This document shows positions 40,844 through 43,635 of a stretch of DNA of 64,000 bases, piece after piece. Under the pieces are notes generated by a model. It saw only the letters and a program-made list of their open reading frames with translations. It had not been told where the DNA came from and did no database searches. Each line of letters begins with the position of its first letter. The stretch's first letter is position 1. This stretch comes from Terriglobia bacterium. GTDB lineage: Bacteria; Acidobacteriota; Terriglobia; Bryobacterales; Bryobacteraceae. The stretch covers positions 1 through 64,000 of the forward strand of contig JAJPHN010000009.1 in the NCBI GenBank assembly GCA_021325235.1. Direction: 5' to 3'. A program made the position numbers and the translations under genes.

Positions 40844-41047
40844 ATGGAAACACTTACGTTTACCTGTTCAATCTGCGGCGATGCCTCGCGCGAGATCTGC
40901 GTGTACTGCACCAAAGACGCCTGCAGCAATCATCTGTGTGAACGGTGCCGGCGTTGCAGCGATTGCTGCAACTGCGAAGTGCGCGTGCTGCAGCAATCGA
41001 ATGGCAACAAGGCCTTCACGGTTCAGCCGCTCGAATCTCAGAGTTAA
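40844..41047 (+). CDS. Cysteine-rich mini-protein, probable zinc-binding treble clef/RING-like
   Basis: A 67-residue protein with eleven cysteines between residues 8 and 44: C8-x2-C11, C19-x2-C22, C27 with His30, C32-x2-C35, C38-x2-C41, C42 and C44. This spacing suggests two cross-braced zinc sites, as in RING/B-box domains. It has no signal peptide. Nothing resembling a characterised bacterial protein comes to mind. It lies nine bases after the helical-protein gene and its stop shares TTAA with the convergent YCII gene. Confidence 0.7.
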   Translation: METLTFTCSICGDASREICVYCTKDACSNHLCERCRRCSDCCNCEVRVLQQSNGNKAFTVQPLESQS

Positions 41048-41406
41048 GTCGCTGGCCCCGGCAGACCGGAAATTTCCAGCACCGGCCGCACTTCCACCGT
41101 GCCGAATTTCGCTCCCGGAATCCCAGCCGCTATCGCCAGCGCTTCATCGAGATTGGCCGCATCCACCAGAAAATATCCGCCCAGTTGCTCGCGCGTCTCG
41201 GCAAAAGGTCCGTCAAGCACCATGCGTTTCCCTTCCCGCACTCGCACGCTCGTGGCAGTAGCGGTCGGATACAGCGGCCCGGCACCCAGGTAATTGCCGT
41301 TCCTGGCAAGTTCATGTGCGTATTGGGTGGATTCCTTGTAGCAGGCCTCGAGCACCGCCTCCGGCTGCGCGCCTTCCTCGAGATAAATCAGCAGCATGTA
41401 TTTCAT
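41044..41406 (-). CDS. YCII/DGPF-domain protein
   Basis: A 120-residue cytoplasmic protein of the YCII superfamily. It contains the group signature LDGPFAETREQLGGYFLVD (64-82) and the conserved start MKYMLLIYLEEG. DGPF proteins are the usual partners of ECF42 sigma factors, and one such sigma gene is nearby. Some are proposed small-molecule enzymes or binding proteins, but the substrate is unknown. It follows the GyrI-like gene by seven bases on the same strand and should be co-transcribed with it from the divergent promoter. Confidence 0.9.
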   Translation of the reverse strand: MKYMLLIYLEEGAQPEAVLEACYKESTQYAHELARNGNYLGAGPLYPTATATSVRVREGKRMVLDGPFAETREQLGGYFLVDAANLDEALAIAAGIPGAKFGTVEVRPVLEISGLPGPAT

Positions 41407-41413
41407 GTCGTAG

Positions 41414-41893
41414 TTATTCGACCGGAACCCAGATTTCCATGTCGCCGCGGCCCGTGAGCGGGTCGAAACCTTCCCCGTAGCGCTCGAAAAACGACACACC
41501 TCCCGGAAGGGGTTGACGATAGCGATATCCCGCAGCCGCAAGATCCGTACTCCAGATCTTCGAGATTGTTTCGAACAGTTGTGAAACGTGTTCCTCGTGC
41601 GCGAACACGGCGTATCGCTGCGCTGGAATTTCGACCGCCTGAAACCCGTCGGGAAGCGAACCGCCCTCGCGAACTTCGACTCCCGAAATGTAGTCGAACC
41701 CGGGGCTGGTCGCGAGACAGACACCGTAAGCCACGCGTCCCACTTGCCCCGGGATCGAGCCCAAATGCGGCGCCAAGCGTTGCCACTGAGCGGGGATACC
41801 CGTGGGGTCAGATGACGAAAAATGGCCGCGCAGCCCCGCAATGAGCAGCGCGGGCTGATTGACAAGACGAGCTTTGGATGTGCTTGCAGTCAT
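41414..41893 (-). CDS. GyrI-like small-molecule-binding protein
   Basis: A 159-residue protein with the beta/alpha pattern of GyrI-like/AraC effector-binding domains ([43 protein letters not shown]). No DNA-binding domain is attached. The ATG has AGAGGA five bases upstream (41899-41904). It could bind a toxic or signalling ligand, a job of this fold elsewhere. It is transcribed divergently from the ECF42 gene with a shared promoter region and is followed by the DGPF gene. Confidence 0.85.
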
Positions 41894-41911: not shown

Positions 41912-41939
41912 TGTCGAACGGCATGCCTCCCAATCGACA
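41912..41939. promoter_or_regulatory. Bidirectional ECF42-type promoter with reverse-complement arms
   Basis: TGTCGA (41912-41917) and TCGACA (41934-41939) are exact reverse complements separated by 16 bases. ECF42 sigma factors of Streptomyces are reported to use TGTCGA at -35 and CGA at -10. Read on plus, TGTCGA precedes CGA (41935-41937) by 17 bases, pointing to the sigma gene at 41963. Read on minus, the same geometry points to the GyrI-like gene at 41893. Predicted transcript starts leave leaders of about 15-20 bases. Confidence 0.6.
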
Positions 41940-41962
41940 GTAGCGCAAAATTATGTAAGACG

Positions 41963-43198
41963 ATGCTGCAGCAGGCGGACAGGGCAGTCGAGGAAGTCTA
42001 TCAAGCCGATTGGGGGCGGATTTTGGCCGCCCTGATCGCCCACTTCAAGGATTTCGAGCTCGCCGAAGAAGCGGTTCAGGAGGCGTTTGCAGCAGCCCTG
42101 GATCAATGGCGCGTGGAGGGAATACCCGATTCGCCGCGTGCCTGGATCATACAGACGGCGCGTCACAAAGCGATCGACAAAATACGCCGGCGCGTCCGTC
42201 ACACCCAGGCGGTCGAGTCGATCGCAGCAACCAGTCAGGCCTTCAGCGAACCCGATTACGACTGGAACGAGATACCCGACGATCGTTTACGCCTTATCTT
42301 CACCTGCTGCCATCCGGCGCTCGCTCCCCAGACACAAGTTGCGCTGACGCTTCGAACACTGGGCGGCCTCGAAACCGATGAGATCGCGCGCGCGTTCCTG
42401 GTTCCGCCCGCGACCATGGCCCAACGGCTGGTACGCGCGAAACGCAAAATCCGCGACGCCGGTATCCCCTACCAGGTGCCCGCGATTCAGGACATGCCCG
42501 ACCGGCTCCATGCGGTGCTGGCCGTGATCTATCTCATATTCAACGAAGGCTACGCCGCCACCCGAGGCACGCTGGTGAAGACGGATTTGTGCCTGGAGGC
42601 GATCCGGCTCGGTCGTCTGGTCTACGGAGTGATGAAACCAGCCCCCGCCGAAGTCGCCGGCCTGCTCGCCCTGATGCTCCTCCACGATGCCAGACGCGAG
42701 GCGCGGCTGAGCGCTGAAGGCGACTTGGTACTGCTCGATGAGCAGGATCGCGGCCGCTGGAACAGCGGTCAAATCGCCGAAGCCATTCCGCTGGTCGAAG
42801 AAGGACTGCGCTCTCCCGGACCCTACGCTCTTCAGGCCGCGATCGCCGCGCTGCATTGCCAGGCAGAGCGCCCGGAAGAGACCGATTGGGCGCAGATCCT
42901 CGAACTCTATAACCTGCTCGAGCAATTGCAGCCCACGCCTGTCGTTGCCTTAAATCGCGCGGTGGCAGTCGCGCAGGTGCACGGTCCTGCGGCCGCGCTC
43001 GGCGTCATCGATTCGCTCGCAGCAGCTGGCGATCTCGACGGCTACCATCTGCTGCATGCCACTCGCGCAGAGTTACTCCGCCGCATGGGCCGCAACCAGG
43101 AAGCGGCCGAGAGCTACCGGCGCACGCTGGAACTGGCAACCAACGAAACCGAGCGGCGCTTTTTGGAAAAGCGGCTCCAGCAGGTCCATCCCGGATGA
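41963..43198 (+). CDS. ECF42-type RNA polymerase sigma factor with C-terminal TPR extension
   Basis: A 411-residue sigma factor. Sigma-2 (about 10-80) shows [16 protein letters not shown] and [11 protein letters not shown], and sigma-4 (about 110-160) shows [20 protein letters not shown]. The 200-residue C-terminal extension ([23 protein letters not shown]-like helices to the end) is the ECF42 hallmark and may replace an anti-sigma factor. The start is ATG 41963. An open frame extends upstream, but starting there would engulf the promoter region. It is auto-regulated in inference (see promoter entry), and its stop overlaps the GNAT start in ATGA. Confidence 0.93.
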
Positions 43199-43635
43199 AT
43201 GCCGGCGAATCGGAGTCCGATTTCCATATCGAAAAGCGAGTGGATCCGAGCCCGCAAGAGCTGGACCGCCTTCGCAGCGCGCTCTCGACGTTCAATCGCA
43301 GCAAAATACCGGATCGTGGATATCTGCCCGTTCATTTCGAGCTGCTGGACGAGGGGAACGAATTTGCCGGCGGAGTGAGCGGTTACGTCTCGTACGGCTG
43401 GTTATTTATTGACACGCTCTGGGTATCCGAACCCGCGCGCATAAAAGGATGGGGTCGCAGGCTGATGCTCGCCGCCGAGGACGAAGCGCGCCAGAACGGG
43501 TGCCGTCGCGCCTGGCTCGACACCTTCAGTTTCCAGGCCCGTGCATTCTACGAAAAGATCGGCTATCGCGTCTTTGCCGAATTGGAAGAGTTTCCGTCAG
43601 GTCACTCCCGCTATTTTCTGCGTAAGGAGCTATAG
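43195..43635 (+). CDS. GNAT-family N-acetyltransferase
   Basis: A 146-residue cytoplasmic acetyltransferase. Acetyl-CoA loop motif A is [10 protein letters not shown] and the later FYEKIGY motif B is intact. Its ATG overlaps the sigma-factor stop (ATGA), so the sigma factor and enzyme are made together. This suggests it belongs to the ECF42 regulon, acting perhaps on an antibiotic or protein. Its stop is nested with the convergent PEP-CTERM gene (six-base overlap). Confidence 0.9.

Follow-up and report, generated by a model that had tools for sequence, protein, structure and literature searches.

ECF42 sigma factors are widespread, and the promoter motif known for Streptomyces venezuelae ECF42 combines TGTCGA with CG(A/T)C. 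The three S. meliloti ECF42 (RpoE10) promoters read TGTCGG-N17-CGTC, with the spacer counted here from the printed table (PMC6180224). Control of ECF42 activity has so far only been proposed, according to the portion of the literature we consulted (PMC8999054). Outside this family, bidirectional promoters of E. coli are described as pseudo-symmetric DNA that RNA polymerase (RNAP) can bind in two mutually exclusive orientations, with a shared −10 and start sites commonly 10, 18 or 23 bp apart (Warman et al., PMC12825309). In Pseudomonas syringae, the ECF gene hrpL is divergent from the ECF-dependent gene hrpJ, and RNAP-HrpL bound at the hrpJ promoter covers the hrpL control region and represses hrpL (PMC5263251). 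In leaderless bacterial genes, a TANNNT motif is reported about 12 bp ahead of the start codon (PMC3160421). The ECF42 promoter, the bidirectional promoter and self-occlusion by an ECF sigma factor are already known separately. Outside the main ECF42 papers, the titles and abstract openings listed by our literature search showed no self-complementary or bidirectional ECF42 promoter and no hexamer shared between ECF42 and a housekeeping sigma factor, and the parts of PMC10880074 and PMC9205884 that it covered contain nothing on the motif.

The window analyzed here is the whole 64,000-nucleotide stretch of a Terriglobia bacterium contig (JAJPHN010000009.1), from a genome of 5.03 Mb in 60 contigs with four DUF6596 loci. 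Its + strand encodes a 411-aa protein (41963–43198) with Pfam matches to DUF6596 (2e-32), Sigma70_r4_2 (3e-10) and Sigma70_r2 (2.9e-8); two TPR models scored below their cut-offs. The combination of sigma regions 2 and 4, a C-terminal extension of the DUF6596/TPR type and a YCII-domain gene in the neighborhood identifies an ECF42-like sigma factor, in agreement with the preliminary description of the locus. A structure search with the sigma sequence returned distant ECF sigma factors and one designed repeat protein, and nothing else. Divergent from the sigma gene, on the − strand, is an operon whose first gene (41414–41893) codes for a GyrI-like small-molecule-binding protein and whose second gene (41044–41406) codes for a YCII-domain protein (Pfam YCII, 1.6e-20). 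Downstream of the sigma gene, the ORF of a GNAT acetyltransferase (43195–43635, + strand) overlaps the sigma stop codon and is therefore probably co-transcribed with it.

The intergenic region that separates the sigma gene from the GyrI-YCII operon contains the element TGTCGAACGGCATGCCTCCCAATCGACA (41912–41939). Its two arms, TGTCGA (41912–41917) and TCGACA (41934–41939), are exact reverse complements, as initially described, with 16 bases between them. The equal 17-base spacing claimed for both directions holds when the −10 is taken as CGAC and the spacer is counted from TGTCGA to CGAC, for TGTCGA-N17-CGAC is then present on both strands; it does not describe the gap between the hexamers, which is one base shorter. 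On the − strand, TGTCGA at 41934–41939 (TCGACA on the + strand) is the −35 of the ECF42 promoter towards GyrI-YCII, and CGAC at 41913–41916 (in full, TTCGACA) is its −10, 17 bases away. On the + strand, TGTCGA at 41912–41917 is a candidate sigma-facing −35, which is not conserved, and CGAC at 41935–41938 is the candidate −10 by geometry and matrix score. At the level of sequence, the symmetric core elements expected of a bidirectional promoter are therefore present on both strands.

Such a palindrome is seldom expected by chance in the window: TGTCGA-N14..19-TCGACA occurs once, and 100 dinucleotide shuffles yielded a mean of 0.03 occurrences, with three of the 100 containing one. No second copy of the element was recognized in the window at up to three mismatches (23 matches, the site itself included, for 32.5 expected). 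Across the 5.03-Mb genome, N14–18 palindromes occupy six places (three for a reversed control pattern), and 41912–41939 is the only one of the six with N16 spacing. The palindrome by itself is only mildly unusual at genome scale. We call the site a promoter because of its location, with an ECF42 gene on one side and the genes that usually accompany ECF42 on the other, and because it matches a matrix derived from other loci. From the comparisons with those loci, we consider it likely that three things hold jointly: an ECF42 output promoter faces GyrI-YCII, the sigma-facing reading of the same DNA is unselected, and the sigma gene of the relatives is driven by a housekeeping promoter.

The comparisons draw on a phylum survey of DUF6596 loci in 297 genomes, 87 of which had a match. 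After three matches below the family cut-off were left out, the survey comprised 139 loci (including the window), each with a sigma ORF. A YCII gene was upstream and co-directional in 78 of these loci, downstream and co-directional in 38, upstream and divergent in 7 and downstream on the opposite strand in 3; 12 loci had no YCII gene within the set limits and 1 was too short. An order-wide protein search found some match in at least 246 of 257 genomes, many of them weak (other sigma factors, paralogs), and, among the matches listed, a separate group of close relatives with about 61–73% identity. We took this group as orthologs and examined 37 regions, the window included, leaving out a partial match without the N-terminus (G480:C246). 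The best 80 of 590 loci from a scan of named genomes were added, for a total of 267 ECF42 loci, designated here by L numbers. An entry titled as a Bordetella parapertussis metagenome bin (L201) carries an ECF42 locus, and its title looks mislabelled.

Of the 300 YCII upstream regions taken from these 267 loci, 111 had the pattern TGTCGA-N17-CG[AT]C directed at the YCII gene and 3 had it directed away, relatives being counted unmerged. A 16-base spacer gave 11 and 0, respectively, and other spacers 0–5 and 0–1; a 15-base spacer class was dropped, with none in the 300 regions. The window site has the same composition as the promoters of the ECF42 group (RpoE10, S. venezuelae), namely a TGTCG −35 and a CG[AT]C −10 separated by a 17-base spacer before a YCII-type gene or operon. 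It differs from the RpoE10 promoters, which are asymmetric and have CGTC in the printed table (PMC6180224), in carrying CGAC plus an A, so that both strands match.

A matrix built from 90 co-directional sites ranked the two readings of the element first and second in the window, with 24.8 bits towards GyrI-YCII and 20.5 bits towards the sigma gene. The next best place scored 12.8 bits and the maximum in one shuffled window was 15.1 bits. Both readings fall inside the 5–95% range of the training sites (16.5–31.4 bits; mean of 25.0). Across 44 divergent sites the mean was 25.2 bits for the operon-facing direction versus 7.9 bits for the sigma-facing one, and the window ranked second among the latter, after L176 (21.0) and before L265 (19.4), L181 (18.3) and L185 (16.2). 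The −10 is 19 bases from the GyrI ATG, for a median distance to YCII of 20 in 33 other divergent loci. Furthermore, the AT profile rises 10–19 bases upstream of TGTCGA in co-directional and divergent sites alike, reaching 0.5–0.77 upstream of the co-directional −35 versus about 0.2–0.5 elsewhere. This suggests a conserved UP-like element for the ECF42 group, represented in the window by an AT-rich tract (41947–41958) just upstream of the operon-facing −35. Because co-directional sites have the tract too, AT-richness near the −35 is partly an UP-like ECF42 feature.

By motif, spacing and score, the operon-facing promoter at 41912–41939 is a canonical ECF42 output promoter that is kept in relatives. 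Signal-activated ECF42-RNAP would transcribe GyrI-YCII leftward from about 41904, a predicted start placed 9 bases past the −10 on the assumption that the sequences printed for two S. meliloti promoters end at the start site. The operon mRNA would then have an 11-base leader containing AGAGGA.

The sigma gene appears to be served differently in the divergent relatives. A site counted as divergent when it lay within 200 bases of the sigma gene, was directed away from it and had no co-directional YCII gene just upstream. TANNAT is present 16–19 bases after TCGACA in 34 of 43 divergent versus 2 of 90 co-directional sites (p = 5e-21, a value that ignores kinship and overstates independence), with modes at 18 and 17 bases; shuffles of the local bases gave a mean of 3.6 and a maximum of 9 of 43. 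The divergent set leaves out L183, whose spacer is one base longer, and the 43-row sets also leave out L242 (TGTCGC), which is part of the matrix scoring (44 sites) and of the count of A after CGAC discussed below. TCGACA is found upstream of the sigma gene in 35 of the 37 orthologous regions; L172 and L178 are without it, the copy in L175 lies outside this element, and L171 (same place as L136) is counted in the 35 and absent from later analyses. In 22 of the 35 regions, TANNAT ends 5–6 bases before the sigma start codon, a likeness to the TANNNT of leaderless genes (PMC3160421). TCGACA-N17/18-TANNAT resembles a housekeeping promoter with a −35 one mismatch from TTGACA, and the same arrangement is present in L202 (titled Polyangiaceae) and L200 (titled Candidatus Sulfotelmatobacter). 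Hence, the usual sigma promoter in the divergent relatives looks like a leaderless housekeeping promoter with TCGACA as its −35, through which, with the TANNAT close before the start codon, the housekeeping holoenzyme would read the sigma gene. The flanks are equally tight on both sides of the element (medians of 29 bases for the sigma side and 20 for the operon side in 33 loci), so their length gives no extra support for a shared −35. The idea that the sigma side is the more tightly spaced was dropped for the same reason.

Occupation of the shared hexamer by ECF42-RNAP for operon transcription would cover the sigma start, and a block of the sigma gene (negative feedback) is therefore predicted for these relatives. 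The geometry would fit negative autogenous control of the HrpL type, in that an ECF gene and a target gene of the ECF factor are divergently arranged. However, transcription of hrpL depends on sigma-54, with the activator site 15 nt from the hrp-box (PMC5263251), whereas the predicted overlap here is the −35 hexamer itself. The same occlusion may operate in the window, with TATGTA as the −10 of a leaderless housekeeping promoter for the sigma gene that ECF42-RNAP represses; we place this reading somewhat below an even chance. The frequency and position of TANNAT in the relatives and the HrpL precedent argue for it, as does a set of sister loci. Indeed, the window groups with L151, L152, L155 and L159 (support of 93, below the tool's mark of 95), and all five loci have TATNTA 5–6 bases before an ATG, which in L155 and L159 is downstream of two in-frame ATGs. 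The motif is TATTTA or TATATA at 5 bases in L152, L155 and L159 and TATTTA at 6 bases in L151. TANNAT at 16–19 bases is absent from all five.

The details of the window speak against such a housekeeping promoter. Its TATGTA (41952–41957, + strand), 5 bases before the ATG, is a weak −10 candidate that does not conform to the TANNNT described about 12 bp before leaderless start codons (PMC3160421), and the 12 bases that separate it from TCGACA are fewer than a normal −35/−10 pair requires. The corresponding distances from TCGACA to TATNTA are 17 in L151, 13 in L152, 16 in L155 and 14 in L159, and those from TCGACA to the ATG are 23 in the window, 29 in L151, 24 in L152, 27 in L155 and 25 in L159. 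TCGACA is itself one base off TTGACA, and the consensus pattern TTGACA-N16..19-TANNNT-N4..7-ATG is not enriched in the host genome (3 matches versus 2 for the control). In the subclade, the sigma −10 would have become TATNTA-type, with spacing of 12 to 17, and the window unites a good sigma-facing ECF42 score and the least favorable spacing of a housekeeping −10. A basal supply of its sigma mRNA would be expected, with a leaderless start probably at 41963 or close to it. The divergent gene has been swapped within this subclade, being GyrI in the window and L159, DinB-like in L151, YCII in L152 and DUF899 in L155, and the operon-facing promoter stays.

Returning to the favored reading, in which the sigma-facing direction is unselected, the symmetry itself can be traced to the sequence of the −10. 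The complement of TTCGAC is GTCGAA, so a single base is all that an ECF42 promoter of this kind lacks for a full −35 on the opposite strand; where CGAC is preceded by T, symmetry requires only an A after CGAC. With the window excluded, this A is present in 4 of 57 co-directional versus 6 of 24 divergent sites (p = 0.057, again overstating independence in a divergent set that is mostly one clade). All CGAC sites were counted, whatever the preceding base, and identical sites were merged, unlike in the YCII count. The idea that A is avoided in this position to prevent symmetry was dropped, given its presence in the divergent sites. The sigma-facing arm of the 35 orthologous regions begins with A in 24, T in 7, G in 3 and C in 1, and its second base is G in 24, A in 10 and T in 1. 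These substitutions keep a recognizable operon-facing −10 (TTCGAC or TTCGAT, mostly followed by T) and break the predicted sigma-facing −35, and the base counts are what retention of TTCGA(C/T)T as the operon −10 would give.

A search for the same arm spacing in other ECF42 loci, suggested in the preliminary description, showed TGTCG at N16 in 6 of the 35 regions (the window, L151, L157, L176, L181 and L182), which makes 5 of the 34 other TCGACA regions; in L183 the arm is spaced one base wider. On a tree of 49 proteins (quick method, single support value) with 43 labelled rows, the 7 symmetric rows required 7 changes. By both counts, symmetry is not a conserved trait of the ECF42 clade. In L176, one of the symmetric loci, the first gene after the ECF42 promoter codes for a Phd/YefM-type antitoxin and separates the promoter from YCII. 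The perfect mirror symmetry looks like a chance feature of the host genome and a few others, in which a chance A after CGAC would have given the other strand a full TGTCGA-N17-CGAC. Judged by its sequence, the resulting sigma-facing promoter is competent and under no visible selection. What stands of the proposed 28-bp bidirectional element is its position between the sigma gene and GyrI-YCII and its score on both strands; a selected, positively autoregulating switch is unsupported, given the scarcity of the N16 arm, the low mean of the sigma-facing scores and the prevalence of TANNAT.

A true bidirectional ECF42 promoter, to which RNAP would bind in either orientation so that ECF42 activates its own gene along with the operon, is in our estimate improbable. 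ECF42-RNAP would, in that case, also start near 41947 on the + strand and generate positive feedback, the two orientations being mutually exclusive as is possible at the pseudo-symmetric E. coli promoters. Unlike in E. coli, where the −10 is shared (PMC12825309), each −35 here overlaps the opposing −10, and the predicted starts are about 43 bp apart. The promoter-grade scores on both strands, the absence of a housekeeping-like TANNAT from the window and the somewhat greater frequency of symmetry in divergent CGAC sites are consistent with this reading. So is the coincidence of symmetry with the absence of TANNAT, which is missing from 4 of 7 symmetric versus 5 of 36 asymmetric sites (p = 0.026, kinship ignored). 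However, symmetry is not maintained among the orthologs and its seven occurrences are scattered over the tree. The sister loci L152, L155 and L159 are without the full sigma-facing arm; in L155 and L159 the arm is ATCGA and their sigma genes therefore cannot rely on an ECF42 −35 there. The sister locus L151 is symmetric and lacks TANNAT, has TATTTA at 17 bases, and scores 15.3 bits in the sigma-facing direction. An AT-rich stretch (7 of 10 bases) is also present upstream of the sigma-facing arm in the window, but it is unspecial, as the same side has 7 of 10 in the symmetric L151 and 8 of 10 in the asymmetric L079. Furthermore, the predicted + strand leader (41947–41962) has no Shine-Dalgarno-like sequence, unlike the operon side.

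Other ECF42 systems point both ways. The locus L265 (on a contig titled uncultured Planctomycetaceae) likewise carries an N16 self-complementary promoter (around 2341–2369) between an ECF42 gene and a divergent gene for a YCII-SnoaL fusion, and its symmetry is independent of that in the window. Its sigma-facing side has 8 of 10 AT and no TANNAT at that spacing, but another TA-rich −10-like sequence adjoins its own sigma start. Most ECF operons are described as positively autoregulated and about 55% of ECFs are predicted to be autoregulated, in the part of the literature covered (PMC8103513), yet RpoE10 of S. meliloti seems not to activate the operon that encodes it, as far as the sections consulted indicate (PMC6180224). 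ECF42 self-activation in the host genome is possible but unproven, a live option rather than a conserved trait, because the window is without TANNAT and has the second highest sigma-facing score of 44. The sequence alone accommodates either sign of feedback. A more general scheme, in which a single hexamer at divergent loci is read by ECF42 (as TGTCGA) and by the housekeeping sigma factor (as TCGACA) and the decayed housekeeping side of the window lineage plus one base would flip the feedback from negative to positive, is speculative and, we believe, unlikely. The perfect 6+6 inverted repeat would also suit an operator for a dimeric repressor or activator rather than a promoter, but this has hardly any likelihood, for the same −35/−10 pair is found unidirectionally and without symmetry before YCII genes in many genomes and a Pfam scan of five neighboring ORFs gave no such regulator.

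If divergent loci share a −35 between two sigma factors, a few bases would set the sign of the feedback, and nature already offers the variants for testing this, since loci differ in symmetry and in the presence of TANNAT. An incidental symmetry would still illustrate that an ECF promoter with reverse-complement −35 and −10 cores can become two-way by one chance base, which is a caution against calling such palindromes regulatory.
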